Source: a virus. From it: a DNA stretch of 64,000 nucleotides. Below the pieces are notes generated by a model. That model saw nothing but the letters and a program-made list of their open reading frames with translations. It ran no database searches and was not told the origin of the DNA. Shown piece by piece: positions 18,204 through 63,688 of this stretch (positions within the stretch are counted from its first letter, which is position 1; each line of letters starts with the position of its first letter). A program made the position numbers and the translations under genes. The stretch spans positions 107,976 through 171,975 of the IMG/VR virus record IMGVR_UViG_3300036766_001364; one strand, written 5' to 3'.

Positions 18204-18229
18204 AGAGGGCGCCAGAAACGGCGCCCTCT
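18204..18229 (+). terminator. Stem-loop terminator after the major capsid gene
   Basis: AGAGGGCGCC at 18204-18213 pairs perfectly with GGCGCCCTCT at 18220-18229 across a 6-base loop (AGAAAC). Only a weak T-tract (TCCGTTG) follows, so it may be Rho-independent or simply stabilise the abundant capsid mRNA 3' end. Confidence 0.75.
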
Positions 18230-18242
18230 TCCGTTGTATGAT
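18226..18242 (+). promoter_or_regulatory. Class B-like promoter overlapping the terminator arm
   Basis: CTCTTCCGTTGTATGAT contains the class B CTCTTCCG box and a TATGAT -10 at 18237-18242. The ATG at 18250 starts 7 bases later, consistent with a leaderless mRNA. The CTCT box is shared with the terminator's right arm. Confidence 0.45.
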
Positions 18243-18249
18243 GGCATTG

Positions 18250-19107
18250 ATGACGCGCGAGGACGGTCGGTTCGAGAAGGGCCACAAGGCCGGTCCTGGT
18301 TGGAAGAGGAATGTCGGTCATGGATGGACTGACGAGGATCGCGCCAAGCGAAAGAATCCAGGTGGACGCGGATTTAAGCACACGCCCGAAGCGAAGGCGA
18401 AGATCTCCCGGGCGTCGCGCGAACGAGCCCAGGATCCGGAGTACAGAGAGCGCCACGGCGTCGCACTGAAGAAGGCGTGGGAGACGCGCGATCGGACAGT
18501 CTCCGAGGAGACGCGCCAGAAGCTGCGGGCCAGCCGGCTCGGCAAGATCCCGGCCAACAAGAGGGGCCGTGAGGCGGAATGCGCCAGGTCAGGATGTACT
18601 AATATCATCTGGATATCGCCGTCGCGCGAGGGCACGAAGCGACACTGTTCGACGCCTTGCGCTCTCTCGGATCGCGCCCCTGAGATTGTGTCGAGCACGA
18701 TCGGCAAGATGCACGCTGCCCTCCAGGACGGTCGGCTGATCAGCGACCCAGAGCTGCGCCTGGGAGCGTTCCTCCTCGTCTGCGGGTTCGACGTCCACGG
18801 GCAGCGCGAGGTCGGCGCGTATCGCGCGGACTGGCTTGACGACGAGAACGGCCTCGATTGGGAATGCGACGAGCCGTACTGGCATTCGCGGCCTGAGGTG
18901 ATGAAGAGGGCCGCGAACCGCTCATACGCCTTCCGTCGCGCGGGCTACGCTCGGATCGGACTCGAGCCGTCAGAGATCCCCTCGTGGGACGACATAAGTG
19001 ATATTGCCACCTTCTCATCCGGCATGATGCTCTGCGCTGATGAAGGCGAGACCGTCTGCGACTGCTCGCCACGCTCTCGGCTCTCGCGTGATAAAATACG
19101 AGCATGA
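18250..19107 (+). CDS. Homing-type endonuclease with NUMOD3 repeats and zinc site
   Basis: 285 residues if started at the ATG 7 bases after the -10 box; an in-frame ATG at 18238 would add 4 residues. NUMOD3-type repeats lie at about residues 26-40, 44-60 (HTPEAKAKISRASRER) and 84-98 (VSEETRQKLRASRLGK). A C111-x4-C116-x16-C133-x3-C137 cluster should bind zinc. The C-terminal part (YRADWLDDENGLDWECDEPYW, split by further residues, then AFRRAGYARIGL) resembles DUF559/Vsr-like PD-(D/E)xK nucleases. Inserted directly after the capsid gene, it is a likely free-standing mobile endonuclease. The nuclease family assignment is tentative. Confidence 0.65.
   Translation: MTREDGRFEKGHKAGPGWKRNVGHGWTDEDRAKRKNPGGRGFKHTPEAKAKISRASRERAQDPEYRERHGVALKKAWETRDRTVSEETRQKLRASRLGKIPANKRGREAECARSGCTNIIWISPSREGTKRHCSTPCALSDRAPEIVSSTIGKMHAALQDGRLISDPELRLGAFLLVCGFDVHGQREVGAYRADWLDDENGLDWECDEPYWHSRPEVMKRAANRSYAFRRAGYARIGLEPSEIPSWDDISDIATFSSGMMLCADEGETVCDCSPRSRLSRDKIRA
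19079..19098 (+). promoter_or_regulatory. Class B promoter
   Basis: GGCTCTCGCGTGATAAAAT is an excellent class B core, with extended -10 TGATAAAAT. The ATG at 19104 lies 6 bases after the -10 box, so the mRNA is probably leaderless, unlike most class B copies. The core lies inside the 3' end of the upstream nuclease gene. Confidence 0.65.
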
Positions 19108-33595: not shown

Positions 33596-33610
33596 GTCAG
33601 AAGGTTGAAG

Positions 33611-48527: not shown

Positions 48528-48825
48528 AATGACCAAGCTTACGCCTCGCCAGAGGCAGATCGCTCGCGCTATGATCGAGGGCCTCTCTACCGCGGAGATC
48601 GCGGTCGCGCGCGGCGTGGCCGTGGGGACCGTGGAGTGGCACGTGAAACAGACGCTCCGCGCGATCGGGCTGGAAGAGGCCGCGTCTCGCCAACACGGCT
48701 ACAGGGCGAACCTCATGGCGCTGTGCGCGTACGCGATCACCCACGACGCGGAGCTGATCCCGGCCGAGAGCGCGCTGGGGATCGCGCTCAGGCATTATCG
48801 GATCCGCTCAAAGACGAGCGTTTAG
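48520..48825 (+). CDS. LuxR/GerE-type HTH protein, paralogue 2
   Basis: 101 residues. LTPRQRQIARAMIEGLSTAE, then VGTVEWHVKQTLRAIGL, is a full GerE-type HTH. The tail (LMALCAYAITHDAELIPAES, ALGIALRHYR) parallels the 47155 product, so the two are paralogues. Its start lies inside the methyltransferase 3' end. It lacks the C-terminal beta domain of its paralogue. Possibly a transcription regulator of the methyltransferase or late genes. Confidence 0.65.
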   Translation: MHEMTKLTPRQRQIARAMIEGLSTAEIAVARGVAVGTVEWHVKQTLRAIGLEEAASRQHGYRANLMALCAYAITHDAELIPAESALGIALRHYRIRSKTSV

Positions 48826-52113: not shown

Positions 52114-52132
52114 GGCTCTTCCGCGGTAAGAT
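52114..52132 (+). promoter_or_regulatory. Class B promoter
   Basis: GGCTCTTCCGCGGTAAGAT with TAAGAT as -10. A leader ending ACGGAGAGG precedes the GTG at 52162. Confidence 0.6.
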
Positions 52133-53912: not shown

Positions 53913-54101
53913 CTAGAAGCGGAACTCGCGCTTCTCTGACCGCAGCTCTCTCTGCAGAGCGTCGAAGGCGCGCTCGAACACCGCGTCTCTCGGGAGCTTC
54001 TCGAACAGCGGCCGCGAGGCGACGTGCGCCGCGGCGGCCCAAGCGAGCGCCTCGGCCTGCCTCCTGGTCAGCCGCACGACTACGTAGCCGTCGGCCGCCA
54101 T
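53913..54101 (-). CDS. Small helical protein (reverse-strand operon, gene 4)
   Basis: 62 residues from the ATG with GGGGTGG upstream (a longer in-frame start exists). VRLTRRQAEALAWAAAAHVA, then RDAVFERAFDALQRELRSEK are helices. It overlaps the preceding reverse gene by 22 bases. No family recognised. Confidence 0.45.
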   Translation of the reverse strand: MAADGYVVVRLTRRQAEALAWAAAAHVASRPLFEKLPRDAVFERAFDALQRELRSEKREFRF

Positions 54102-54361
54102 CGGTCCACCCCCGCTTCGCACTCTTCGCACCAGCCTTCGGCGATCATGGAGCGCACGTAGCGCTCGGTGCCCTGCAGGAGCGCCGCGTGTCGCTCGCAG
54201 ATCGCGGCGAAGCGGCCCCCGTCGCGGGGGTCGATCCCCTGGTCTTCCGCCCTGACGACGACGCGGATCCCGACTCCGTCTATGTGGGCGTGGACCCTGT
54301 AGCCGGCGTAGCGGCGGACGATCCCGCAGGCGGGATCGCTCGAAACACGGCAGGCCTTCAT
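54080..54361 (-). CDS. Small Cys-containing protein (reverse-strand operon, gene 3)
   Basis: 93 residues. Strand-rich N-terminal half (RYAGYRVHAHIDGVGIRVVV), helix GRFAAICERHAALLQGTERY, then WCEECEAGVDRW with a C-x2-C pair. Start overlaps the upstream stop. No family recognised. Confidence 0.45.
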   Translation of the reverse strand: MKACRVSSDPACGIVRRYAGYRVHAHIDGVGIRVVVRAEDQGIDPRDGGRFAAICERHAALLQGTERYVRSMIAEGWCEECEAGVDRWRPTAT

Positions 54362-54522
54362 CGCGGCAGCCTTTCAGCCAGGAATTCGGACTGCTCGCGC
54401 AGCCGTTTAGCGTCGCGTGAGTGCGTGCCGTATCGCTCCCAGATGAGCCTCTCGAACTCTTCGAGGAGCGGGAGGATCTCGGTCGCCCTGGCCTTTATCT
54501 CGGCTCGGGTGGGTCCGTTCAT
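54358..54522 (-). CDS. Small helical protein (reverse-strand operon, gene 2)
   Basis: 54 residues. One long charged helix (RAEIKARATEILPLLEEFER, then YGTHSRDAKRLREQSEFLAE), coiled-coil-like. ATG overlaps the upstream stop by 4 bases. No family recognised. Confidence 0.45.
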   Translation of the reverse strand: MNGPTRAEIKARATEILPLLEEFERLIWERYGTHSRDAKRLREQSEFLAERLPR

Positions 54523-54647
54523 CGCGTCACGACCAATATAGGGATATCGCTTGCGACGAGCGCTTTGGCGAGGCTGGCGAGCAGCGCCACTGCCTCCATT
54601 CCGAACCTGCGCGGCTTGCGGCCCTTGCGGATGGGGATCGGGCTCAT
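54519..54647 (-). CDS. Microprotein, first gene of the reverse-strand operon
   Basis: 42 residues. A basic start (SPIPIRKGRKPRRFG) is followed by a helix (MEAVALLASLAKALVASDIP). GGAGG precedes the ATG, and the whole start region is a class B module on the minus strand. The stop overlaps the next start (ATGA). Confidence 0.5.
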   Translation of the reverse strand: MSPIPIRKGRKPRRFGMEAVALLASLAKALVASDIPILVVTR

Positions 54648-54651
54648 CGCG

Positions 54652-54698
54652 ACCTCCGTGCTGTGCTGTTGTGTATAAGGATATCACGAGAGAGCCGT
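54652..54698 (-). promoter_or_regulatory. Class B promoter module on the reverse strand
   Basis: Reading the minus strand: GGCTCTCTCGTGATATCC, then a leader ACACAACAGCACAGCACGG and GGAGG before the ATG at 54647. The leader matches the class B CA-rich type almost base for base. It is divergent from the plus-strand copy at 54709. Confidence 0.65.
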
Positions 54699-54708
54699 GC
54701 GCGTCGGC

Positions 54709-54748
54709 CGCTCCGCCGTGATACGATAGACGCAGCAACATAAAAGGG
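54709..54748 (+). promoter_or_regulatory. Class B promoter module
   Basis: CGCTCCGCCGTGATACGAT (TGATACGAT extended -10), then GACGCAGCAACATAAAAGGG. The copy is back-to-back with the reverse-strand module, so a 100-bp segment drives both arms. Confidence 0.65.
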
Positions 54749-54763
54749 TTGGTGTCTTCATCC

Positions 54764-54970
54764 ATGGTCACAGACAGAGTCAAGCTCGCGACGTTCGCGC
54801 CCGACGACTACCGCGGGCGATACAACTACATGATCGGCTACGTCGGTCAGACGGCCGTGAACGCCGACGCGCCCACGCGCCGATCGCTCGCGCGCGTCCT
54901 GGACGCGATGGGCGAAGCCGCCGAGGTCTCTCGACTGGCGGCGCTCTTTCCGTCCGAGGCTCTCCCGTGA
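54764..54970 (+). CDS. Small protein of unknown function
   Basis: 68 residues from ATG; in-frame GTG (54752) and TTG (54749) lie closer to the AAAAGGG site, so the start is uncertain. Segments: RVKLATFAPDDYRGRYNYMI, then AVNADAPTRRSLARVLDAMG. The stop TGA is the TGA of the next class B promoter (CGTGATACG). Confidence 0.5.
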   Translation: MVTDRVKLATFAPDDYRGRYNYMIGYVGQTAVNADAPTRRSLARVLDAMGEAAEVSRLAALFPSEALP

Positions 54971-55008
54971 TACGATGGCCACAACAACAACAACAACAGA
55001 ACACGGAG
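54958..55008 (+). promoter_or_regulatory. Class B promoter module
   Basis: GGCTCTCCCGTGATACGAT, then a CAA-repeat leader (CACAACAACAACAACAACAG) and ACACGGAG. It has the longest CA-rich leader of the set. Confidence 0.7.
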
Positions 55009-55016
55009 AACCCAAG

Positions 55017-55181
55017 ATGCCGAAAGTCTACCACATGACCAAGCAGCGGGCGCTCGAGGGCGCGATCGAATGGCTCCAGGCCGTCCTCGACGAAGGCCAC
55101 CTCGACGGCGAACAGATGAAGCGAGACATCCTGTCTGACCTCGCCGCCTATCGGGCGGCCCGAGACCGGGGGTCGCGGTGA
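55017..55181 (+). CDS. Small helical protein of unknown function
   Basis: 54 residues from the ATG 8 bases after GGAG; an upstream in-frame ATG would start before the -10-derived transcript start. Helices: YHMTKQRALEGAIEWLQAVL and GEQMKRDILSDLAAYRAARD. The next gene begins at its stop (GTGATG). Confidence 0.55.
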   Translation: MPKVYHMTKQRALEGAIEWLQAVLDEGHLDGEQMKRDILSDLAAYRAARDRGSR

Positions 55182-55696
55182 TGGGAGTCGACTGCAACGC
55201 CTACCTGTACCAGTCTGCCGACGCCAGGGACGTCGCCGCGGTCCTCGCCGCCCTGGCGGGGAACACGATCAAGGAAGACGCCCACGGGAACGCCGGGGGC
55301 GAAGCCGTCATCGTGCGGCGAGCGCACATCGACGACATGCTGAGGATCGAGTTCCCGTCCCCCGCAGATCCGAAGTGTCCGACGCACGCGTGCGCGTTCT
55401 TCTTCAACGCGGACGGGCCGCGCCACGCGTTCAGGCTCGTCATGATGCGGTCGACGGCGTTCTGGATCGCCGCGGCGCGCGGGCTCGTGGACGTCTTCGG
55501 CGGGTTCGCCGACTACTCAGACAGCGACACGTCCGAGGTCGACTACGCGCGCTTCGAGGCCAAGGTCATGGCCGCCACAGACGGCGACGCGTGGCGCGAG
55601 CGCCAGGATCGCATCTTGAGCGTGAAAGCGATCGCTCCGGCCGACCTCATGCTCTGCGAGCAGTGGGCCGCGTACAAGTCAGGAGATCTCGAATGA
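55181..55696 (+). CDS. Protein of unknown function
   Basis: 171 residues (ATG, or GTG one codon before). It opens VDCNAYLYQSADARDVAAVL, then alternates strands and helices: VIVRRAHIDDMLRIEFPSP, ACAFFFNADGPRHAFRLVMM, FWIAAARGLVDVFGGFADYS. The region around DSDTSEVDYARFEAKVMAA is acidic. ATGA overlap with the next gene. Resembles hypothetical proteins of phages in style only. Confidence 0.5.
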   Translation: MGVDCNAYLYQSADARDVAAVLAALAGNTIKEDAHGNAGGEAVIVRRAHIDDMLRIEFPSPADPKCPTHACAFFFNADGPRHAFRLVMMRSTAFWIAAARGLVDVFGGFADYSDSDTSEVDYARFEAKVMAATDGDAWRERQDRILSVKAIAPADLMLCEQWAAYKSGDLE

Positions 55697-56088
55697 CGAG
55701 GGAAGACGTGGACGACATCAGCGTGCTCGAGGACTTCATCACGCCGCCGAGCGTCGGCGGACGGTTCGGCGCGCGCGTCGACAGGAGCCTCATGTTCCGC
55801 GCCAAGGGGGGGATCTTCCAGGTGCGCATCAGGGACGACGGGCCGATCCAGTCTTCGTACGCGCTCCTCGTGCGGTGGAGCCGCGAGCGAGAAGACTGGG
55901 TCACGCTGTCGATCCGCAAGCCGTCGGAGTGGGGCCTCTGCGCGGTCGGCGGCGCCAACGGGTCGGGCAGCGCGAAGCACGACCGCGAGTTCTACAAGCC
56001 CGCCGAGGACGACCTCATCGCGCTCGCGCTCGACTTCGAGGACTCGCTCCAGGACATCGGCCGCGCCAAGCCGGCTCTCGCGCGATAA
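55693..56088 (+). CDS. Protein of unknown function
   Basis: 131 residues. TREDVDDISVLEDFITPPSV is followed by beta-rich stretches (SLMFRAKGGIFQVRIRDDGP, DWVTLSIRKPSEWGLCAVGG) and an acidic helix (EDDLIALALDFEDSLQDIGR). The TAA stop is part of the next class B -10 (CGATAATATGG). Confidence 0.5.
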   Translation: MTREDVDDISVLEDFITPPSVGGRFGARVDRSLMFRAKGGIFQVRIRDDGPIQSSYALLVRWSREREDWVTLSIRKPSEWGLCAVGGANGSGSAKHDREFYKPAEDDLIALALDFEDSLQDIGRAKPALAR

Positions 56089-56114
56089 TATGGTCACAAC
56101 AACAAAATAGGGAG
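56073..56114 (+). promoter_or_regulatory. Class B promoter module
   Basis: GGCTCTCGCGCGATAATAT, then GGTCACAACAACAAAATAGG and GGAG. Here TG of the extended -10 is CG. Confidence 0.6.
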
Positions 56115-56121
56115 ACCAGAC

Positions 56122-56352
56122 ATGCAGTTCACCGTCAGGGCCATCGCGATCGACCCGAGCACGGGTGCGATGTACCCGCCGCGCGACGAGACGATCGACA
56201 CCGAGGCGAACGCGCTCTTCAGCGGCTGCTTCAGCGAGTGGGACGTCGAAGACGCGTACGAAGCGTTCTGGAACAGGCTCGACGGGTCGTGGGAAGCCGA
56301 GTTCCCGCGCGGCAAGGAGAAAGTCAAGGTCGTCAGCGTGGCGAGGCTGTGA
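56122..56352 (+). CDS. Small beta/alpha protein of unknown function
   Basis: 76 residues with GGGAG upstream. QFTVRAIAIDPSTGAMYPPR, then LFSGCFSEWDVEDAYEAFWN and FPRGKEKVKVVSVARL. Strand-loop-helix-strand plan. The stop overlaps the next GTG (GTGA). Confidence 0.55.
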   Translation: MQFTVRAIAIDPSTGAMYPPRDETIDTEANALFSGCFSEWDVEDAYEAFWNRLDGSWEAEFPRGKEKVKVVSVARL

Positions 56353-56837
56353 CAGAGTGTCCCGTCTGCTGCCAGCGCTTCAACGACGCGCCCACGGGTC
56401 AGGACTACCGCTACCGCAGTTGGAAGCACAGCAAGTCAAAGCGTCACAAGCGGGCGCTCTCGCGCGATACAGTGGTCTCAACAACGAAACAGAGAGGTCC
56501 CATCATGCCACACGCCGAAGGCCGCCATTCCATCATCGACATCGAATCAGACAGCGCGTATGAGCGCGTGCTCGCCAGCGAAGCGTTCCCGGGCGGGTTC
56601 GAGGACAAGGACCCGAAGGACGTCCTCGACGCGCTGCTCGACCTGGCCTACGATTATTGCCCAGGCGCCGATTCTGTCACCTTCGACTTCCACGGCGAAC
56701 TCGTAGCCGAGGGCATGGCAGTTCGGCCCGGCTACCGATTCAGCGCCGTCTTTGGGGACGGCTGCCGCGTGTCGGCCTGCAACATCCCCAAGCGCGCCAT
56801 CGCGCCGCGCGACCTGGCCGCCATGGACTTGGGATAG
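56349..56837 (+). CDS. Zinc-knuckle protein in frame with the 56505 gene (stop-loss fusion)
   Basis: 162 residues if read through. Residues 1-38 are a small C2H2-like unit (ECPVCCQRFNDAPTG, then KHSKSKRHKRALSR). In the neighbouring genes the class B promoter supplies a TGA stop here, but this copy has CGA (CTCGCGCGATACAG), so the frame continues across the leader (VVSTTKQRGPI) into the downstream protein. That protein has its own promoter and ATG at 56505 (110 residues: IIDIESDSAYERVLASEAFP, DVLDALLDLAYDYCPGADSV). Both separate and fused products are possible. Confidence 0.5.
   Translation: MTECPVCCQRFNDAPTGQDYRYRSWKHSKSKRHKRALSRDTVVSTTKQRGPIMPHAEGRHSIIDIESDSAYERVLASEAFPGGFEDKDPKDVLDALLDLAYDYCPGADSVTFDFHGELVAEGMAVRPGYRFSAVFGDGCRVSACNIPKRAIAPRDLAAMDLG
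56454..56497 (+). promoter_or_regulatory. Class B promoter module with lost stop codon
   Basis: GCGCTCTCGCGCGATACAGT, then CTCAACAACGAAACAGAGAGG. The usual TGA is CGA, which removes the stop of the upstream frame. Confidence 0.6.
56505..56837 (+). CDS. Protein of unknown function (own start of the fused frame)
   Basis: 110 residues from the ATG after GAGAGG. SAYERVLASEAFPGGFEDKD, then LDALLDLAYDYCPGADSVTF and YRFSAVFGDGCRVSACNIPK. This start fits the class B pattern better than the longer in-frame start. No family recognised. Confidence 0.55.
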   Translation: MPHAEGRHSIIDIESDSAYERVLASEAFPGGFEDKDPKDVLDALLDLAYDYCPGADSVTFDFHGELVAEGMAVRPGYRFSAVFGDGCRVSACNIPKRAIAPRDLAAMDLG

Positions 56838-56848
56838 GCGCTCTAACC

Positions 56849-56892
56849 GACTCTCCCGTGATACAATGATCCCAACAACAACAGCAGGGAGC
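56849..56892 (+). promoter_or_regulatory. Class B promoter module
   Basis: GACTCTCCCGTGATACAAT, then GATCCCAACAACAACAGCAGG and GGAG. Confidence 0.7.
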
Positions 56893-56899
56893 AACCCAC

Positions 56900-57232
56900 A
56901 TGACAACGCTTGCAGTCCGCAACGAAGCGCAGAAGATCCTCCTCGAGCGGGAGATGCTTGGCCAGATCAGCGACGGCCAGTGGGAGAACGCCCGACCGCT
57001 CGACCACTGGGAACCGTGGTGCAACGCGACGATCATCGTCGATCCCGCGAACGTCGGCCGCGATTTCTACGCGCGCAAGGACAACTACAACCTCACCAGC
57101 AAGTACCTGCTCGACATCGTCGGAGACCGCATGCTGGAAGCCGTCCAAGCGTCCGTGTCTGGCTACGACCGCAAGCGCATGGTCGCCGACCTGCGCGACC
57201 TCAAGGCCATCTTGAAGGCGTGGAGGGCCTGA
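56900..57232 (+). CDS. Protein of unknown function
   Basis: 110 residues after a class B leader. N-terminal helix (VRNEAQKILLEREMLGQISD), then WENARPLDHWEPWCNATIIV, KDNYNLTSKYLLDIVGDRML and C-terminal MVADLRDLKAILKAWRA. The aromatic middle and charged helices suggest a compact globular protein. The next gene starts 4 bases after the stop, in the same frame. Confidence 0.55.
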   Translation: MTTLAVRNEAQKILLEREMLGQISDGQWENARPLDHWEPWCNATIIVDPANVGRDFYARKDNYNLTSKYLLDIVGDRMLEAVQASVSGYDRKRMVADLRDLKAILKAWRA

Positions 57233-57235
57233 CGC

Positions 57236-57502
57236 GTGGCGATCGCGTTCACGGTCCCGCCGTTCAGCGGGCCGCGCTACGGTGAGAACGCGTCCCGCTG
57301 TCGGGGCGATCAGTGGCCCTGCGCGATCTGCGGGAGGGCGACTGAGAACGCCTCGGCGTGGGCGACCGTCGTTGACGGAGGCGCGGCCTGGGGGGACGAG
57401 TCCTCAGACGAGGAAGCGGACGGCTTCATGGGACAGTACCCGATCGGCGCAGACTGCGCCCGGCGGTACCGCATCAGGGGGATTGAGCGCGCTCTTCCGT
57501 GA
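57236..57502 (+). CDS. Small zinc-site protein
   Basis: 88 residues, GTG start. C22 and the pair in WPCAICGRATENASAW, with CARRYRIRG near the end, suggest one zinc site. The acidic middle (DESSDEEADGFMG) is flexible. The stop TGA is the TGA of the next class B promoter. Same-frame position after the preceding TGA means a readthrough product would be possible. Confidence 0.5.
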   Translation: MAIAFTVPPFSGPRYGENASRCRGDQWPCAICGRATENASAWATVVDGGAAWGDESSDEEADGFMGQYPIGADCARRYRIRGIERALP

Positions 57503-57525
57503 TAAGATAGATCCAACAGCAGGAG
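57491..57525 (+). promoter_or_regulatory. Class B promoter module
   Basis: GCTCTTCCGTGATAAGATAG, then ATCCAACAGCAGGAG. The leader is short. Confidence 0.7.
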
Positions 57526-57534
57526 CAAAAAGCG

Positions 57535-57870
57535 ATGCAGTACGCGATCCGGATCCGCAATAGCCACACGCACAACGTCGACATAGAGGGACCCCACCTC
57601 GACCTGCCCGACTTCGCCGTGCTCGGCTGGTACGCAGGCGACGACGAGCCGCCCTCGGCCCACATGCGGGTCGGCGTGCTGGTGTTCGACGACTTGGCAG
57701 AGGCCGAGGCCGACCGCGACGCCGTGATGGCGACGTGGTTCGCCTGCACGGCCGAGGTCCGTGTCCGTCAGCGAGGACAGATCAAGGGGGTAATCGCGAT
57801 GGACCACGGACGCGCTCATCGAGAAGATCAACGAGAGCGTCCGCGGGGATCCGGTCCGGCTCTCTCGTGA
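57535..57870 (+). CDS. Protein of unknown function
   Basis: 111 residues. Beta-rich start (QYAIRIRNSHTHNVDIEGPH), then PDFAVLGWYAGDDEPP, RVGVLVFDDLAEAEADRDAV and WFACTAEVRVRQRGQI. The last 30 codons look unlike the rest; another frame reads a plausible helix there (ALIEKINESVRGDPVRL), hinting at a late frameshift. The stop TGA lies in the next class B element. Confidence 0.5.
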   Translation: MQYAIRIRNSHTHNVDIEGPHLDLPDFAVLGWYAGDDEPPSAHMRVGVLVFDDLAEAEADRDAVMATWFACTAEVRVRQRGQIKGVIAMDHGRAHREDQRERPRGSGPALS

Positions 57871-57899
57871 CAAAATAGTCCCAACATCAAAAGCAGGAG
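57859..57899 (+). promoter_or_regulatory. Class B promoter module
   Basis: GGCTCTCTCGTGACAAAATA, then GTCCCAACATCAAAAGCAGG and GGAG. Confidence 0.7.
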
Positions 57900-57907
57900 T
57901 GAATCCC

Positions 57908-58372
57908 ATGGCGACGGAGTTCGTAAGGATCGCGGCCGATCGCGTCATCGTGGCGCCGTTCTCGATCGATCAAGCAGTCTGGCACGTCGCGCGCGCCAGG
58001 CAGAAGATCGAGACTCCGTGCCCGTTCTGCGCCGGCGGGGGATACGCTGTCGGCAAAGACGGCTCGAACGCGAGCTGCCCCAAGTGCATGACGAGGGCGG
58101 TCATCGTCGCTTACCTCGACGAAGCGTGGGCGGTCGACGATCGCGCGATGACCGTCGGGCAGATCAGGCTCGCCTACACCGGCGGACACCGAGCTTCCAG
58201 CGAGCGGTCGATCAACTACGGCTCACAGAAAGAGAGCGTCGAGTGGCGCTTCATGTGCTACGAGACGGGCATCGGATCGGGGTCGCTGTGGGATCCCAAG
58301 GACCTGTTCGCTTCGCGTGAGACGGCGCAGGCGGCGTGCGACACGAGGAATGCCGCGCCGTCTCTCTCGTGA
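57908..58372 (+). CDS. DnaJ-like zinc-finger protein
   Basis: 154 residues from the ATG after GGAG. C-x2-C (CPFCAGGGYAVGKDG) and a second C-x2-C (CPKCMTRAVIVAYLDE) form a zinc site of the DnaJ type. The remainder mixes helices and loops (RSINYGSQKESVEW, YETGIGSGSLWDPKDLFASR). It could chaperone or bind nucleic acid. The stop is the promoter TGA of the next module. Confidence 0.6.
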   Translation: MATEFVRIAADRVIVAPFSIDQAVWHVARARQKIETPCPFCAGGGYAVGKDGSNASCPKCMTRAVIVAYLDEAWAVDDRAMTVGQIRLAYTGGHRASSERSINYGSQKESVEWRFMCYETGIGSGSLWDPKDLFASRETAQAACDTRNAAPSLS

Positions 58373-58402
58373 TAAGATAGATCCAACAACGCAGCACGGA
58401 GG
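58360..58402 (+). promoter_or_regulatory. Class B promoter module
   Basis: GTCTCTCTCGTGATAAGATA, then GATCCAACAACGCAGCACGG and GGAGG. A near-consensus copy. Confidence 0.75.
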
Positions 58403-58408
58403 CCAGCG

Positions 58409-58876
58409 ATGGCACTGACGATCGAAAAGAACGCCGACGGCAAGTGGGCGCTCACAGACACCGAAGCAAACACGGTCGAGCTGTTCCGCAGCCGGACCGG
58501 GGCCGACGCCAAGCGCACCGTCCTCTTCAATCGGCGCGACGCCGCGGACCTCAAGGCGCGTCAGGACTGGGCGGCCGCGATGCCTCAGGCGAGCAAGGAT
58601 AGCGTCGACCACGCGATCAAAGACGCCGAGCGGCGTCTCGTTGACGCTGAAGACCGCGTCAAACGCGGGGCCGTGCGCATCAAGGAGAGGATGGAAAGCG
58701 TGCTCGCTGGGATGGAGCGCGGCCGGTATCCGAACTGTCTCGGAGAGCTGCAGTTTTCGGGCGTTGAGTTCGACCGCCTCTGCGGCGAGTTGGATCGCGC
58801 GAAGCACGAGCTGGTCGCCGTCCAGGACGTGTTCAAGCATGCGTTCGGCCGGGAGGACGAACCCGCCCTTAAGTAG
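58409..58876 (+). CDS. Helical protein of unknown function
   Basis: 155 residues. N-terminal strands (LTIEKNADGKWALTDTEANT, VELFRSRTGA), then a long coiled-coil region (SVDHAIKDAERRLVDAEDRV, AVRIKERMESVLAGMERG, LCGELDRAKHELVAVQDVFK). Could be a structural or regulatory dimer. No family recognised. Confidence 0.55.
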   Translation: MALTIEKNADGKWALTDTEANTVELFRSRTGADAKRTVLFNRRDAADLKARQDWAAAMPQASKDSVDHAIKDAERRLVDAEDRVKRGAVRIKERMESVLAGMERGRYPNCLGELQFSGVEFDRLCGELDRAKHELVAVQDVFKHAFGREDEPALK

Positions 58877-58885
58877 GGGGCCCAC

Positions 58886-58928
58886 GGCTCTCTTGTGATA
58901 CGATAGGCACAACAACGAAACAGAGAGG
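58886..58928 (+). promoter_or_regulatory. Class B promoter module
   Basis: GGCTCTCTTGTGATACGATA, then GGCACAACAACGAAACAGAG and AGAGG. Confidence 0.7.
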
Positions 58929-58935
58929 TACCCCC

Positions 58936-59367
58936 ATGATATCGATCGTCCGCACGCGCGAGCCGAAGGTCATCCAGCTCTACATCTCGCGCATGGACAG
59001 CTTCGGCGATCAGAACGACACGGTCCTGGACGCGGACACGCGCGAGCAGTTCGCCGACCACGCGATCCTCACGTGGCAGTTCGAGCACAACCGGTACCCG
59101 GGCGACGGCGCTGGGTCGATCGTGCGCGGGACGCTCGTGCTGGTGCAGGACCGCGGCTGCGTCTCCCACGGCGCGCCAGCCGGTTCGCGCTTCATAATCA
59201 AGGTCCTGGAGGGCGAGTTCGAGCGCGTTGGCCAGGCGGACATGCTGTTCGACGGCGACGTGACCGTGGAGTTCGACCAGGCGCGCCTGACCGCTCTCGT
59301 CAACGAGGTGAAGGCGGGCAAGCGCAGTCACGAGCCGCATCGCAGCTCGCAGCTCGCTGAGGCCTGA
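58936..59367 (+). CDS. Protein of unknown function
   Basis: 143 residues. Beta-rich: SIVRTREPKVIQLYISRMDS, HAILTWQFEHNRYPGDGAGS, IVRGTLVLVQDRGC, FIIKVLEGEFERVGQADMLF and DVTVEFDQARLTALVNEVKA. Looks like a small OB- or SH3-like barrel. C-terminus is basic. No family recognised. Confidence 0.55.
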   Translation: MISIVRTREPKVIQLYISRMDSFGDQNDTVLDADTREQFADHAILTWQFEHNRYPGDGAGSIVRGTLVLVQDRGCVSHGAPAGSRFIIKVLEGEFERVGQADMLFDGDVTVEFDQARLTALVNEVKAGKRSHEPHRSSQLAEA

Positions 59368-59378
59368 TCCCGAGGTCG

Positions 59379-59423
59379 GCTCTCTCGTGATAGAATAGCT
59401 TCAACCACAGAACACAGAAGGGG
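59379..59423 (+). promoter_or_regulatory. Class B promoter module
   Basis: GGCTCTCTCGTGATAGAATA, then GCTTCAACCACAGAACACAG and AAGGGGG. Confidence 0.7.
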
Positions 59424-59429
59424 GCGATC

Positions 59430-59651
59430 ATGCCAGCAGACGACATCGCCGAGATACGGACCGCCATCTTGAGCGAGGTGGCTTCGAACTTGGAGACTCT
59501 CGATTTCCTGGACGGCGGCGACGTCGGGTTCGCGGTCGGCGCGGTGTACGCCGCGGCGATCGAGGCCAACGCCATAACCGCCTGCTTCAGGCTCGAAGAC
59601 GGGCGCGTGGTGACGGCGCGGTTCGCGCTCGTCAATCTCGAGGTCAAGTAG
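59430..59651 (+). CDS. Small alpha/beta protein of unknown function
   Basis: 73 residues. Helix (DIAEIRTAILSEVASNLETL), then GGDVGFAVGAVYAAAIEANA and strands TACFRLEDGRVVTARFALVN. No family recognised. Confidence 0.5.
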   Translation: MPADDIAEIRTAILSEVASNLETLDFLDGGDVGFAVGAVYAAAIEANAITACFRLEDGRVVTARFALVNLEVK

Positions 59652-59653
59652 GA

Positions 59654-59689
59654 ATGCCAGATCAAAAAAGAGCCAAACCGGCCACATGA
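59654..59689 (+). CDS. Possible 11-residue leader peptide
   Basis: ATG CCA GAT ... TGA encodes MPDQKRAKPAT and overlaps the next ATG by 4 bases. It could couple translation of the next gene or be chance. Confidence 0.25.
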   Translation: MPDQKRAKPAT

Positions 59690-59835
59690 TCGCCATCACC
59701 GACGATCTCTACTGGAAGCTGCAAGAGGCGCCAGCTACGACCCGGACGACCGCCAACGTCGAATACCAGCGCGTGACGGCTCCCGCCTGGCTCGCAGCGT
59801 TCCTCACCTCGCAGGCACAGGAGGCGCAGGGATGA
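59686..59835 (+). CDS. Short relative of the undecapeptide-repeat protein
   Basis: 49 residues. The end NVEYQRVTAPAWLAAFLTSQ and AQEAQG repeats the end of the next gene almost exactly, but only one 11-residue unit (NVEYQRVTAPA) is left. It looks like a copy shortened by recombination between repeats. Its stop overlaps the next ATG. Confidence 0.5.
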   Translation: MIAITDDLYWKLQEAPATTRTTANVEYQRVTAPAWLAAFLTSQAQEAQG

Positions 59836-60290
59836 GCGCAACCACTCCACGGATCACGCTCGCGATGCTGAAAGGCGCTTGTAGCGAGCAGCGCCACACC
59901 TTTCTCACTGAATGGCCGCAGGGCGCTGTGGCAACCCTCGAAAACGTCCAGCGCGCACAGGCTATTGGCCTTAATCTCGATTGGGGTACGTGCTGGTTCA
60001 CGGCAACCGCCTACGCCGAATACGAGAGCGTGAGGATTGCCGCCCAAGCCGAATACCGGCTCGTGACGATTGCCGCACTCGCCGAATACCAGCGCGTGAG
60101 GATTGCCGCCAACGTCGAATACCAGCGCGTGAGGATTGCTGCCTGGCTCAAATACGAGAGCGTGACGGCTGCCGCCCAAGCCGAATACGAGAGCGTGAGG
60201 ATTGCCGCCCAAGCCGAATACGAGAGCGTGACGGCTGCTGCCTGGCTCGCAGCGTTCCTCACCTCGCAGGCACAGGCGGTGCAGGGATGA
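59832..60290 (+). CDS. Undecapeptide-repeat protein
   Basis: 152 residues. After an N-terminal domain (about 60 residues; QRHTFLTEWPQGAVATLENV) come seven 11-residue repeats of the type AEYESVRIAAQ (AEYRLVTIAAL, AEYQRVRIAAN, VEYQRVRIAAW, LKYESVTAAAQ and so on), then WLAAFLTSQAQAVQG. Similar AEYxxVxxxA repeats occur in several phage and bacterial proteins of unknown role. Each unit is 33 bp, and neighbouring units are nearly identical at DNA level, so copy number should vary by slippage. Probably an elongated helical rod. Confidence 0.65.
   Translation: MSATTPRITLAMLKGACSEQRHTFLTEWPQGAVATLENVQRAQAIGLNLDWGTCWFTATAYAEYESVRIAAQAEYRLVTIAALAEYQRVRIAANVEYQRVRIAAWLKYESVTAAAQAEYESVRIAAQAEYESVTAAAWLAAFLTSQAQAVQG
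60062..60250 (+). repeat. 33-bp tandem repeats inside the 59832 gene
   Basis: Units share GCC-GAATAC-SAGAGCGTGA-type cores (GAATACGAGAGCGTGA occurs repeatedly; GAATACCAGCGCGTGA in others). The same 16-mer family appears once more at about 59761 in the upstream short gene. Confidence 0.7.
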
Positions 60291-60460
60291 GCGATCAGCT
60301 AACCCGCGTAAGGTGCATAGAGCAGGCGGCGGACGACTACCGCCGATGAGGGCGGTTGCGACATCTGCGAGGCGGCAACGCATCAGAGCAGCGAATGCCC
60401 CCCCAGGAACCGCTGCCCATGTTCATCGAGACGATGGCGGACGACGGCCTAGCTTCGTGA
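60287..60460 (+). pseudogene. Probable small zinc-finger gene broken by frameshifts
   Basis: ATG 60287 reads 20 residues (SDQLTRVRCIEQAADDYRR) and stops. The next frame continues sensibly as GCDICEAATHQSSECPP, a zinc-finger-like sequence with no start codon of its own. After a run of seven C (about 60398) a third frame reads PQEPLPMFIETMADDGLAS to TGA 60458-60460. Two indels would restore one protein of about 57 residues. Either decay or sequence error. Confidence 0.45.
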
Positions 60461-60474
60461 GCGAGTTCATCGAC

Positions 60475-60517
60475 CGCTCTTCCGTGGTAGAATAGTCTCA
60501 GCAACAAAAGCACGGAG
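60475..60517 (+). promoter_or_regulatory. Class B promoter module
   Basis: CGCTCTTCCGTGGTAGAATA, then GTCTCAGCAACAAAAGCACG and GGAG. TGG replaces TGA in the extended -10. Confidence 0.7.
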
Positions 60518-60524
60518 ACCGACG

Positions 60525-60740
60525 ATGACCACCGACCTGCCCACCTGCATCCGCACCGGCTTGCCCATCAGGCCCGAGCTCTGGCCACCGCAGCCCGAGT
60601 ATCGGGGCGCGCACAGGCCGTTCGTCGGCCCGATGGTCAGCGCTCGCCTGGCGTGGCTGCTGGACTCAGACCAGTTCACGGCCACTTACGGCTGGGGCTT
60701 TGAGTGGAAAGACCAATCGCTGGTGGTGAAGGCATCGTGA
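60525..60740 (+). CDS. Small protein of unknown function
   Basis: 71 residues. Pro-rich N-terminus (CIRTGLPIRPELWPPQPEYR), then GPMVSARLAWLLDSDQFTAT and YGWGFEWKDQSLVVKAS. Strand-rich end. Starts 7 bases after GGAG. No family recognised. Confidence 0.5.
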   Translation: MTTDLPTCIRTGLPIRPELWPPQPEYRGAHRPFVGPMVSARLAWLLDSDQFTATYGWGFEWKDQSLVVKAS

Positions 60741-60757
60741 GCCAGGCGGGGGACTAG

Positions 60758-60808
60758 CGCTCTCACGTGATAAAATAGATCCAACAACAACAGAAAGCAG
60801 GGGGGGAG
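60758..60808 (+). promoter_or_regulatory. Class B promoter module
   Basis: GCGCTCTCACGTGATAAAAT, then AGATCCAACAACAACAGAAA and GCAGGGGGGGAG. Perfect TGATAAAAT. Confidence 0.75.
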
Positions 60809-60816
60809 TCCTCGCC

Positions 60817-61035
60817 ATGGCCACCGACCAGACCAGACAAGAAGCGCGCGACGATCAGCGCACGATCGAGCGCCTTGACGCCGCCGACGCGTACATCGCG
60901 AAGAACCTGCCCGGCGCTCAGCCGCTCTTCAAGTGCGTGGAGTGCGGCCGTCGCTTCCGCACGGTGAGCGCCGCAGAACGCGCAGTGGATGAGGGCTGCC
61001 CCAGATGCGGTGGCTCTGACGTCGATCTGGCCTGA
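60817..61035 (+). CDS. Small zinc-ribbon protein
   Basis: 72 residues. Helical N-terminus (TRQEARDDQRTIERLDAADA), then C-x2-C (KCVECGRRFRTVSAAERAVD) and C-x2-C (CPRCGGSDVDLA) at its end: a rubredoxin-like zinc ribbon. Such ribbons bind nucleic acid or protein. It is one of several small zinc proteins in this region. Confidence 0.65.
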   Translation: MATDQTRQEARDDQRTIERLDAADAYIAKNLPGAQPLFKCVECGRRFRTVSAAERAVDEGCPRCGGSDVDLA

Positions 61036-61075
61036 CTCTCTCGTGGTAAAATAACCACAGCAACAAAACACGGAG
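61034..61075 (+). promoter_or_regulatory. Class B promoter module
   Basis: GACTCTCTCGTGGTAAAATA, then ACCACAGCAACAAAACACGG and GGAG. Confidence 0.7.
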
Positions 61076-61083
61076 ACATGACC

Positions 61084-61290
61084 ATGGACTACCAGATCAA
61101 GCACAGGACGCTGCCGCGCGGCCTCTACCGCGCCAAAGCGACCCTCTATACGGCCATCGTCACCGACGAGCGCGGCGAGGTGGACCGCAAGGAGTTCGTC
61201 GTGGCGTGTGGATCAGGGAGTCCGCGGGCGCTCCTGCAGTGGCTCGATTCGTTCGGCTTCAGCGTCATCAAGACGCAGGTCGCCGCGTGA
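61084..61290 (+). CDS. Small beta-rich protein of unknown function
   Basis: 68 residues from the ATG 8 bases after GGAG (an in-frame ATG at 61078 is too close). YQIKHRTLPRGLYRAKATLY, TAIVTDERGEVDRKEFVVAC and ALLQWLDSFGFSVIKTQVAA. GTGA overlap with the next gene. No family recognised. Confidence 0.5.
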   Translation: MDYQIKHRTLPRGLYRAKATLYTAIVTDERGEVDRKEFVVACGSGSPRALLQWLDSFGFSVIKTQVAA

Positions 61291-61505
61291 GCGCCCGCGT
61301 AGGGATCGTCTGTGACCAGTGCACCAACGTCGGCAAGATGGCCATCGGCCCGACTGTCTACGGCACCATCGACGACCTCCGCAGGTCATTGCGCTTGGGC
61401 GGCTGGAAGACCTACCGCGCCCCGGTCAGCCGGGTGCTGGACGTCTGCCCCAACTGCCTGGTGGAGCCACTCATCCCAGACGACTGGCGCGAGGTCGCTC
61501 CGTGA
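61287..61505 (+). CDS. Small zinc-ribbon-like protein
   Basis: 72 residues, GTG in a GTGA overlap. C-x2-C (IVCDQCTNVGKMAIGPTVYG) and C-x2-C (DVCPNCLVEPLIPDDWREVA) frame a small ribbon; the middle DLRRSLRLGGWKTYRAPVSR is basic. Resembles the other zinc ribbons here. Confidence 0.6.
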   Translation: MSARVGIVCDQCTNVGKMAIGPTVYGTIDDLRRSLRLGGWKTYRAPVSRVLDVCPNCLVEPLIPDDWREVAP

Positions 61506-61532
61506 CTCAGGCCACATGCGGCGCGACCCCTG

Positions 61533-61685
61533 ATGCTGAAGACCGGCGAGACGCTGGCCTGCATCAAGATCGCCGGGCACGAGGCGCTGGACGAGACCAA
61601 GCTGTCGCAGTGCCACGCTGGCTTCCTCGATGGCGCGCGCAGACAGAAGATGCGCTTCTGGCGGGACGGCAAGGAGGTCCTGTAA
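61533..61685 (+). CDS. Small protein of unknown function
   Basis: 50 residues from ATG. LKTGETLACIKIAGHEALDE, then SQCHAGFLDGARRQKMRFWR and DGKEVL. The start is 28 bases after the upstream stop without clear ribosome-binding site. Protein-like composition supports it. Confidence 0.45.
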   Translation: MLKTGETLACIKIAGHEALDETKLSQCHAGFLDGARRQKMRFWRDGKEVL

Positions 61686-61688
61686 GGC

Positions 61689-61730
61689 CGCTCTCCCGTG
61701 ATAAGATGGTCCCAACAACACAGCACGGAG
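61689..61730 (+). promoter_or_regulatory. Class B promoter module
   Basis: CGCTCTCCCGTGATAAGATG, then GTCCCAACAACACAGCACGG and GGAG. Confidence 0.75.
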
Positions 61731-61738
61731 ACACAGAG

Positions 61739-61963
61739 ATGCAGACAGTACGACAGGCCGCCGAAGCGCGAGGGATCACCGAGTACGACACCGCGCTCCC
61801 GCAGCCGTGGGTCGACCTGGTGGTCGAGCGCTTCGGCAAGGATAACTACCCGTGCGGACACGTGGTGTGGTCATACGCGGGCGGCACGAACACGGGCTAT
61901 CCGATGGCCGTGGACGCCTTCGGCGACCGGCTGCTCGGGCGCATCGCGGCCAACCTGCGATGA
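61739..61963 (+). CDS. Small protein of unknown function
   Basis: 74 residues. QTVRQAAEARGITEYDTALP, then WVDLVVERFGKDNYPCGHVV and YPMAVDAFGDRLLGRIAANL. ATG is 8 bases after GGAG; the stop overlaps the next ATG. No family recognised. Confidence 0.5.
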   Translation: MQTVRQAAEARGITEYDTALPQPWVDLVVERFGKDNYPCGHVVWSYAGGTNTGYPMAVDAFGDRLLGRIAANLR

Positions 61964-62112
61964 CGCTCATCGACCCGAAGGACTACCACATGGCCGACCA
62001 GGCCTGCAGCCAGTGCGGCAAGAAGACCAAGGGCCTGTGGATGCCGCGCCGGCTGTGCAACGGATGTGACCGGAAGCGGCAGAATGCGCCGCGCTCTTCC
62101 GTGATAAAATAG
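61960..62112 (+). CDS. Small zinc-ribbon protein
   Basis: 50 residues. C-x2-C (ACSQCGKKTKGLWMPRRL) and C-x2-C (CNGCDRKRQN), a compact ribbon with basic surroundings. The TAG stop lies in the next class B promoter (GATAAAATAG). Confidence 0.6.
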   Translation: MTLIDPKDYHMADQACSQCGKKTKGLWMPRRLCNGCDRKRQNAPRSSVIK

Positions 62113-62132
62113 ATCCAGCAACGCAACATGGG
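62092..62132 (+). promoter_or_regulatory. Class B promoter module
   Basis: GCGCTCTTCCGTGATAAAAT, then AGATCCAGCAACGCAACATG and GGAA. Confidence 0.7.
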
Positions 62133-62141
62133 AATACTCAA

Positions 62142-62363
62142 ATGTTCGTAGTCTTCCATCGCGAGTCGCCCGAAGATTTCACCACGCACCGTGGCAAGCG
62201 CTCGGTCCTCGACGAGATCCAGCCCACTGGGTCGATGGCCGACGAATACTTCGTCATCGAGATCCGCGCCGGGAAAACGATCGGAGTCAGCTTCTCAGAC
62301 GCATGAGTCCAGGACAATGGGTTCGACGACGAATGGCTGGAAAAGAACGGGTACGCGGGGTAA
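62142..62363 (+). pseudogene. Small protein with an in-frame TGA at 62304
   Basis: 54 residues to TGA (62304-62306). The frame then stays open for 18 codons (VQDNGFDDEWLEKNGYAG) to TAA 62361-62363. The continuation reads like the end of the same protein, with TGA where SFSDAWVQDNG would be natural. N-terminal part: FVVFHRESPEDFTTHRGKRS and EYFVIEIRAGKTIGVSFSDA. So either nonsense decay or readthrough. Similar to the interrupted ATP-grasp gene. Confidence 0.5.
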
Positions 62364-62376
62364 GGCCGGTTCACTC

Positions 62377-62400
62377 CGCTCTCGTGGTATGATATGGATC
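62377..62400 (+). promoter_or_regulatory. Class B promoter, leader absent
   Basis: CCGCTCTCGTGGTATGATAT core is intact, but GGATCGCGCGGGGGGGCG and about 60 GC-rich bases replace the usual CA-rich leader. May be inactive or derived. Confidence 0.5.
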
Positions 62401-62475
62401 GCGCGGGGGGGCGTCCGACCACCAGTTTCCCGCCCCGCTTCCTAGTGGTCTAGGCGCCCACGCGTGGAGTACCTG

Positions 62476-62664
62476 ATGAGCACGAAGGACAGACGGTTCG
62501 CCACGGTCGAGTGCGAATGCTGCCACCGCGAGTTCGAGTCGGCCGTCACGGTCGACGGCTCGCCCCACGTGGCACACAAGGCGACGCGCGCAAGATGCTT
62601 CCGATGCCGCATGTCGTGCACGAACCAGGTCGGCGACTGTCGCCTCTCTCCCGCGGTAGAATAG
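62476..62664 (+). CDS. Small zinc-finger protein
   Basis: 62 residues from ATG 6 bases after GGAG. ECECCHREFESAVTVDGSPH and RARCFRCRMSC give several Cys pairs that could bind zinc. The TAG stop is inside the next class B promoter. An in-frame GTG lies at 62464. Confidence 0.55.
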   Translation: MSTKDRRFATVECECCHREFESAVTVDGSPHVAHKATRARCFRCRMSCTNQVGDCRLSPAVE

Positions 62665-62684
62665 TCCCAACAGCAAAAGGGAGG
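62643..62684 (+). promoter_or_regulatory. Class B promoter module
   Basis: CTCTCTCCCGCGGTAGAATA, then GTCCCAACAGCAAAAGGGAG. Confidence 0.7.
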
Positions 62685-62698
62685 ACTCAAAAAAAAAG

Positions 62699-62809
62699 AT
62701 GGACCAGAAGTGCTACGCGTGTCCGAACCGCGCGATCGCTTACATCGTGTTCGCCGGCAAACCGGCCAAACTGGCCTGCTACGACCACCTCGACGGGAAG
62801 GACTCCTGA
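62699..62809 (+). CDS. Microprotein with Cys pairs
   Basis: 36 residues, preceded by GGGAGG and a run of A. C5-x2-C8 (KCYACPNRAIAYIVFAG) and C28-x2-H31 (LACYDHLDG) could bind zinc. Two bases after its stop the next gene begins. Confidence 0.5.
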   Translation: MDQKCYACPNRAIAYIVFAGKPAKLACYDHLDGKDS

Positions 62810-62810
62810 G

Positions 62811-63056
62811 GTGGAACAGCTGTCCGTCGGAGCGGCGCTCCTGATCGCCGGGTTCGCCTGTCTCGGGTGGACGGCGTACGCACAGGCGCGCCGGCCAGCG
62901 CCCAGACCAGCGCCACCAGAACGGGTCCCAGTCGCGCCTAAGGCGCCCCGCGCCAAGCGACGGCCGCGCCCGATCGTAGACCTGGGCAGCGGCAGCACCG
63001 CGGCCGAGCGTGAGTCGCTCATGCGGGCCATCGAGGCTGCCGACCGCCGTGGTTGA
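62811..63056 (+). CDS. Small N-terminally anchored membrane protein
   Basis: 81 residues, GTG start. One hydrophobic helix (SVGAALLIAGFACLGWTAYA) followed by a Pro/Arg-rich linker (ARRPAPRPAPPERVPVAPKA) and a helix (TAAERESLMRAIEAADRRG). Type II or III single-pass topology. Its end overlaps the next gene by 8 bases. Confidence 0.5.
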   Translation: MEQLSVGAALLIAGFACLGWTAYAQARRPAPRPAPPERVPVAPKAPRAKRRPRPIVDLGSGSTAAERESLMRAIEAADRRG

Positions 63057-63393
63057 CAGCGTGGGCGTGTTCCTCTCTGGGCGGCCGAGGCAGCCCAGCG
63101 GGAAGGACCTGCTGCGCGCCGTCGCCGCCCGCGACTACAGCCTCGTCTTCGTGGACGACGCCGACGAGACGGTGTGGAACGGCGGGCCCATCGAGCCAGA
63201 CTTCGTGACTGACGACCGCGTCCAATGGCGCTTCTCGGTGGACATCAAGCGCGACTGCTACGTGGCCGGACTGGTCATCGAGTTCGGATCGTTCGACGAG
63301 CCGTATCGGCATCCGGTCAAGGACTCGGTGGCCGGGCGCATGAATGCCGGCGACACCCTGAACGTCGGCTTCGAGCTCACGTTCAGGCCGTAG
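63049..63393 (+). CDS. Protein of unknown function
   Basis: 114 residues, GTG start. DLLRAVAARDYSLVFVDDAD, VTDDRVQWRFSVDIKRDCYV, AGLVIEFGSFDEPYR and GDTLNVGFELTFRP: mostly beta. The start lies inside the 3' end of the membrane gene. No family recognised. Confidence 0.5.
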   Translation: MVDSVGVFLSGRPRQPSGKDLLRAVAARDYSLVFVDDADETVWNGGPIEPDFVTDDRVQWRFSVDIKRDCYVAGLVIEFGSFDEPYRHPVKDSVAGRMNAGDTLNVGFELTFRP

Positions 63394-63402
63394 AGGCCTC
63401 TC

Positions 63403-63448
63403 GCTCTCTCTCTCGTGATAAAATGACGCCAGCAACAGCGCGAGGAGC
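63403..63448 (+). promoter_or_regulatory. Class B promoter module
   Basis: CTCTCTCTCGTGATAAAATG, then ACGCCAGCAACAGCGCGAGG and AG. Confidence 0.7.
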
Positions 63449-63454
63449 AGCCAG

Positions 63455-63613
63455 ATGGCGGCGAAGAAGAGGGTCACATTCAGGAACATGGAGGCCGGCC
63501 GGGCGAACTGGGCGGTCTTCCTGGACGGCGCGGCTGTCATCGTCGGCCTCGAAGAGAGCGACGTCAAGGACTACGCGCGGGACGTCAGCGAGTTCGTGGG
63601 CATCGAGAAGTAA
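63455..63613 (+). CDS. Small alpha/beta protein of unknown function
   Basis: 52 residues after GAGGAG. AAKKRVTFRNMEAGRANWAV, FLDGAAVIVGLEESDVKDYA and SEFVGIEK: a basic strand then an acidic helix. No family recognised. Confidence 0.5.
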   Translation: MAAKKRVTFRNMEAGRANWAVFLDGAAVIVGLEESDVKDYARDVSEFVGIEK

Positions 63614-63633
63614 CCGTCCTGTAACCGCTCTCG

Positions 63634-63677
63634 CTCGCTCTCACGCGCTACAATCAACACAACACAACAGGGAAAGG
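63634..63677 (+). promoter_or_regulatory. Class B promoter module (divergent)
   Basis: CTCGCTCTCACGCGCTACAAT, then CAACACAACACAACAGGGAA. TACAAT -10 without the TG extension. Confidence 0.55.
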
Positions 63678-63688
63678 AACCCATCCCA

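Follow-up and report, generated by a model that had tools for sequence, protein, structure and literature searches.

The stretch analysed here (the window, 64 kb) covers positions 107976-171975, the final part of a virus contig of 171,975 bp with a G+C content of 64.6% (IMG/VR record IMGVR_UViG_3300036766_001364). Gene calls, whose starts are the output of a simple gene caller written for this analysis, place a group of leftward genes just before a right end of small genes that read rightward from 54.76 kb. Almost every small gene of this 9-kb stretch is headed by a near-identical start signal, composed of a putative promoter, RNA start and ribosome site; most of the proteins encoded in the array lack family matches. 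The array (54.65-63.7 kb) comprises 18 full forward modules, one leaderless forward core (62377) and one reverse module, listed below in window coordinates. The transcription start sites (TSS) given are inferred from the sequence and are not mapped starts.

54648..54694, reverse: reverse module, core 54694-54678, CTCTCTCG-TGATATCCT, leader TATACACAACAGCACAGCACGGAGG; ahead of leftward genes 54647..53913 and divergent partner of the module at 54711
54711..54763, forward: module 1, divergent, with a weaker CTCCGCCG box; TSS 54734, gene start 54764
54960..55016, forward: module 2, TSS 54983, leader ACAACAACAACAACAACAG, gene 55017; upstream TGA stop in the extended -10
56075..56121, forward: module 3, TSS 56098, gene 56122; upstream TAA stop within the -10
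56457..56504, forward: module 4, TSS 56480; implied gene start ATG 56505, not the longer GTG open reading frame at 56349
56851..56899, forward: module 5, TSS 56874, gene 56900-57232
57492..57534, forward: module 6, TSS 57515, gene 57535; upstream TGA stop within the promoter
57860..57907, forward: module 7, TSS 57883, gene 57908; upstream TGA stop within the promoter
58362..58408, forward: module 8, TSS 58385, gene 58409; upstream TGA stop within the promoter
58888..58935, forward: module 9, TSS 58911, gene 58936
59380..59429, forward: module 10, TSS 59403, gene 59430
60477..60524, forward: module 11, TSS 60500, gene 60525
60760..60816, forward: module 12, TSS 60783, gene 60817
61036..61083, forward: module 13, TSS 61059, gene 61084
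61691..61738, forward: module 14, TSS 61714, gene 61739
62094..62141, forward: module 15, TSS 62117, gene 62142; upstream TAG stop just past the -10
62377..62393, forward: degenerate core without CA leader, CTCTC-to-TG gap two bases shorter
62646..62698, forward: module 16, TSS 62669, gene 62699; upstream TAG stop just past the -10
63408..63454, forward: module 17, TSS 63431, gene 63455
63638..63688, forward: module 18, TSS 63661, gene 63689, running off the contig end

Full modules have the layout CTCTCYCG-TGRTANNAT-N5-C-ARCAACA...GGAG...ATG. All 18 sit at a fixed place ahead of a start codon, and almost all copies share one orientation. A preliminary description of this DNA had listed array positions, all of which carry the motif; its 19 forward copies resolve into the 18 full modules and the shorter core at 62377, and the reversed copy that it placed at 54698 exists, with a core that actually reads leftward from 54694 to 54678. 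The 27-base pattern CTCTYNCGYGRTANNATNNNNNCARCA, with up to three mismatches, was found at 20 sites in the window against 0.12 expected, a count reached by none of 100 shuffles; 18 of the sites are the full modules, and the other two are distant cores (19081 and 52116). The core alone gave 23 matches against 0.62 expected. Over the whole contig, a position weight matrix of the core returned 31 forward matches versus none on a reversed control, whereas the reverse strand gave three versus two on the control. Beyond the window, further full modules are located at contig positions 9284, 21493 and 35874.

Information is confined to the core and the leader. In bits per column over the 18 copies, GCTCTCYCG carries 1.21, TGRTANNAT 1.48, the five bases that follow 0.61, the leader block 1.31 and the zone of the Shine-Dalgarno (SD) sequence 0.44, against 0.11-0.19 in the flanks, which is near the random value of 0.11. 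No -35 conservation was found, as the columns upstream of the CTCTC box (0.11-0.13) are at the random level. Both the absence of a -35 and a leader conserved above its flanks had been proposed earlier, and both are borne out by these figures. The TGN element that directly precedes an extended -10 is represented by TG in 14 copies and by CG in the remaining 4 of 18, and TANNAT is present in nearly all of them. In 7 of the 18 modules the upstream gene ends within the extended -10 or immediately behind it, with TGA as the stop codon in four cases, TAA in one, and TAG just past the box in two. No forward terminators were seen inside the array, which suggests that transcripts probably run through it, with every module adding to the flow. 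An Rfam search matched nothing, and the GC-rich stretch after 62377 was rejected as a structured RNA, its folding being no better than that of shuffled sequences.

The start site could be placed with the help of cores that occur outside the array, at genes without a leader. The cores of the window that lie outside the array are:

18226..18242, forward: core-like site next to the gene start at 18238, without CA leader
19081..19106, forward: exact core at a leaderless start, TGATAAAATacgagcATG, read as TGATAAAAT-acgagc-ATG, which calibrates the TSS
52116..52132, forward: core without leader and without a clear gene start downstream

The distant cores of the preliminary description thus include one exact copy (19081) and two leaderless cores (52116 and 18226), whereas its fourth site, at 44046, has TATAAT but lacks the CTCTC box. 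At contig positions 25290, 95107 and 127064 (window 19089) the start codon stands exactly at the predicted TSS, and at 106925 it is one base off. Genome-wide, TANNAT-N6-ATG/GTG occurs at 15 sites, versus a mean of 4.2 at other spacings (Poisson p 3e-5); in the nearest relative described below, G001, the corresponding count is 26 versus 3.9 (p 1e-13), while no such peak was found in six more distant relatives (G002-G007). The peak marks probable leaderless genes in the late and replication regions, e.g., at contig positions 43118, 57308 and 135840. Leaderless genes, which are common in Actinobacteria and Deinococcus-Thermus, are known to be marked by a TA-box some 12 bp ahead of the start (PMC3160421). 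The spacing of exactly 6 nt at these genes places the TSS 7 nt after the -10, at the C-A step, and C at -1 and A at +1 are found at this distance in 18 of 18 modules. This agrees with promoters of the actinobacterial SigA type, with TANNNT, a start about 7 nt downstream and a dispensable -35. Variant cores were also noted at contig positions 2372, 32484 and 95107, where TACTANAAT replaces TGRTANNAT after the CTCTC box; two of these have short leaders and one is leaderless.

The leader deserves separate attention. Measured from the inferred TSS to the start codon it is 20-34 nt long (median 25), and its first twelve bases consist of 58% A, 27% C, 13% G and 1% T, unlike the regions upstream of other genes. 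ACA is present in all 18 leaders and occurs 35 times in total, versus 18.6 in composition-preserving shuffles. The 5' part of the leader is predicted to be 82% unpaired, compared with 50% for random sequence, and the start regions of module genes are computed to be less structured than those of other genes (p 3e-8). Since leaderless genes carry the core alone, the leader is a separable part, not needed for promoter recognition if these cores are promoters; its role is probably post-transcriptional. ACA motifs upstream of the SD, as found here, characterise the yifK/dppA type of translation enhancer and are known to enhance translation in enteric bacteria (PMC3879156); recruitment of ribosomes is on this ground our best guess for the leader, and a service mainly in translation is, on balance, favoured.

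An array of the same layout and different sequence exists in the nearest relative, G001, a genome of 165 kb with a capsid 79% identical and a largely syntenic late region. It occupies the corresponding region at 141.5-159.6 kb (L029 and L030, oriented), where about 20 copies read forward and another three, immediately to their left, are reversed. Divergent promoters mark the array boundary in both genomes. The G001 module consists of a CCTCCCGGCCGACG-like box about 17-30 bases upstream of TACAAT, followed by GGGATC, A(C/T)CAAGACACA and an SD; its upstream box is different and longer. The start-site step is CA in 19 of 20 copies, and the leaders are 22-27 nt long and ACA-rich. The weight-matrix alignment of G001 was iterative, and its column figures lean towards the pattern found. 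Module identity is 0.72 and 0.64 within the two genomes but 0.49 between them, and the latter value varies by part: 0.77 for the -10, 0.57 for the leader and 0.32 for the upstream box. The gene of module 5 (56900-57232) is 66% identical to a G001 gene at 142398, yet each stands under the module of its own genome, which indicates that promoters were either exchanged in situ or have converged towards the consensus of their lineage. Altogether, the two phages share the -10, the C-A step, an ACA leader of 24-25 nt, the SD and divergent promoters at the left boundary, whereas the upstream box has been turned over in all copies.

The scope of these results is one genome for the module itself and one relative for the comparison. 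The preliminary description had suggested a search of other phage genomes: exact-pattern scans of viral and bacterial collections found the module in no other genome. The six further capsid relatives (G002-G007) lack both the module and an expanded early region; a blastn search of the module consensus against cultured phages gave one 20-nt match, in a Variovorax phage, and a search for homologues of the early genes reached other viruses, among which there were no arrays.

We consider it likely that the modules are tandem promoters for the host RNA polymerase, each coupled to a leader that enhances translation. That they are promoters starting at the C-A step is the firmest part of this reading and very probable; that the region is early, resembling a host-takeover region, is a good deal less firm but still rather likely by analogy. 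Each module would act as a complete expression head. Its core, the CTCTCYCG box abutting the extended -10 TGRTANNAT without a -35, would be recognised by the host polymerase with its housekeeping sigma, a suggestion in keeping with Mycobacterium tuberculosis, where TGN-TANNNT promoters form the most active class and the -35 is not conserved (PMC3898074). RNA would start 7 nt past the -10, at the A. With a length of about 25 nt, the leader starts with ARCAACA, is nearly free of T and is predicted to be nearly free of structure; it would carry the SD and most likely raise ribosome loading through its ACA-rich unstructured part. Some 20 tandem copies may thereby re-establish high transcription ahead of nearly every small gene of this early-looking region. 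The promoter-plus-leader reading put forward in the preliminary description gains support from both the leaderless start-site calibration and the G001 array.

Several points weigh against this reading. The computed accessibility of the SD-AUG region is 0.575 with the native leaders and 0.564 with randomised ones; the leader as an opener of the SD-AUG was rejected, and it cannot be read as keeping the start codon open. The earlier proposal of an unstructured translation enhancer hence stays plausible with regard to a separable, unstructured and ACA-enriched leader, but not with regard to opening the start site. The CTCTC box has no known recogniser; being nearly invariant, it is either contacted by the host polymerase or read by a phage or host protein. 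No host was identified, a capsid search of bacterial genomes having given no match. Finally, no cultured relative was detectable via the capsid or via the 1013-aa protein at 33605, and with no close cultured relative the label 'early' draws on gene size, position and analogy alone.

The box gives rise to a possible, though not favoured, alternative in which CTCTCYCG is bound by an activator that the phage encodes or carries in its virion, or by a factor that appropriates sigma, in place of the -35 contact; the promoters would then be phage-specific and may belong to a middle class. Consistent with this are the CTCT register, which hardly varies immediately ahead of the extended -10, the lack of a -35, and the middle promoters of T4, in which the MotA box replaces the -35 (PMC1524935). 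The box of G001 is wholly different, as would be expected if the box and its reader change together, and a candidate regulator is encoded at window positions 48520-48825, a 101-aa protein with a helix-turn-helix (HTH) like that of LuxR and sigma region 4. A phage sigma factor was rejected: the region-4-like match is a LuxR-type HTH, and no protein with sigma region 2 was detected in the contig or in G001. The core moreover heads scattered leaderless genes, and mycobacterial extended -10 boxes suffice without a conserved -35 (PMC3898074). A more speculative and rather doubtful extension would regard CTCTCYCG as a new promoter element abutting the extended -10 and read by a phage or host protein instead of a -35, with each lineage rewriting about 20 promoters together when the reader changes, while the start site and the ACA leader stay fixed.

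For the leader, a role in transcription (as initial transcribed sequence, in promoter escape) or in mRNA stability, instead of translation, is a possible but less favoured explanation. Conservation does peak at positions 14-21, next to the TSS, and weakens in the direction of the SD, and SD accessibility is not changed by the leader; however, the cores at leaderless genes do without it, ACA is enriched beyond composition, and the leader is always paired with an SD. Stoperators of cluster A phages are short, asymmetric repeats, mostly in one orientation. The present repeats resemble them in all three respects, and a reading as dispersed operators, or as repressor sites like stoperators, was considered. 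Stoperators, which are bound by a repressor, take varied positions relative to genes, whereas here start codons lie tightly 20-34 nt from the TSS, the repeats include their own -10, SD and start-site step, and conservation extends through the leader, which makes repressor sites improbable. More improbable still is that one intergenic segment was recently copied and left a functionless similarity. Adjacent copies do resemble each other slightly more (rho -0.21), and some G001 copies share haplotypes (0 of 1000 shuffles), so that copying contributes in G001. In the present genome, copying without selection is contradicted by the haplotype test: flanks are unrelated, no haplotypes are shared, and nearest-neighbour identity equals the column-shuffled null (p 0.77), as if the copies were independent draws from one consensus, a pattern that fits selection on a functional site and not recent copying.

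Among known systems, the closest in kind are the start-associated sequences (SAS) and extended SAS (ESAS) of cluster K mycobacteriophages and the repeats of cluster EC. Cluster K likewise has a repeated promoter-like element with a conserved ribosome-site sequence before many small non-structural genes, nearly all copies being in one orientation (PMC3203893, PMC11373665). The ESAS contains a SigA-like -35/-10 and was later interpreted as a promoter of the SigA-like kind (PMC11373665). The SAS, in contrast, is a 13-bp sequence, GGGATAGGAGCCC, that is located at the SD, 3-7 bp ahead of the start codon, and in the ESAS 17-18 bp separate the -35 from the -10 and an inverted repeat of 15-17 bp is present (PMC3203893, PMC11373665). 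In the present array the conserved block is CTCTCYCG..ARCAACA, with an extended -10 and no -35, and conservation lies in the T-poor ACA leader and not at the weakly conserved SD; sigma-70-type two-hexamer sites numbered one, on the other strand, versus 1.3 by chance. Judged by its sequence, the array is analogous to the mycobacteriophage ESAS/SAS, not a member of them, and the likeness drawn in the preliminary description was apt, chiefly for the extended SAS. The 18-bp repeats of Microbacterium cluster EC phages are similar as an asymmetric intergenic motif, whose 12 copies all point the same way, precede the ribosome-binding site and lie 21-30 bp ahead of gene starts, but differ in sequence (TAGaCTATaGGTgTaAgC), are not shown as promoters and have no ACA leader described (PMC7302621).

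T4-like phages also possess many similar early promoters with a phage-specific consensus, and novel open reading frames come under the same type; these promoters have a conserved -35 region and an A-rich UP-like element, and relatives differ in detail only (PMC1524935), whereas the present pair of related phages shows a complete exchange of the upstream element. In the host-takeover module of the Bacillus phage SPO1, small early genes are clustered and have promoters and ribosome sites of the kind found at highly expressed genes, and the available portion of that source does not describe a shared promoter-leader module (PMC6873191). Dispersed intergenic repeats of halovirus HF2 were shown by reporter to carry promoters; those are archaeal and genus-wide, whereas the present modules are lineage-specific (PMC8707807).

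The leaderless calibration shows how start sites of uncultivated phages can be located from sequence when RNA is not at hand, and the comparison with G001 separates the parts fixed by host machinery from those free to change. Together the two arrays provide about 40 naturally occurring variants on which the control of expression by upstream boxes and ACA leaders in high-GC bacteria can be tested, and they form a clean natural experiment on how a virus keeps its many promoters similar.

Within the array, the gene at window positions 59832-60290 consists largely of near-identical short repeats (GCCGCCCAAGCCGAATACGAGAGCGTGAGGATT-like). Elsewhere the contig encodes a family-A DNA polymerase, a DnaB-like helicase, RecA, RtcB, SPFH and TROVE proteins and adenylosuccinate synthetase. 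The phage-encoded RtcB RNA ligase and SPFH/Band-7 protein are located at L009:15291-16532 and L010:10439-11431, and 37 tRNA genes lie at L013:6664-15058, within one 20-kb piece, with the gene of the TROVE-domain protein among them. Two inteins were observed, one of the LAGLIDADG type in a cytosine-5 methylase (L011:15090-17315) and one of the Hint type in a 697-aa protein (L013:16182-18275).

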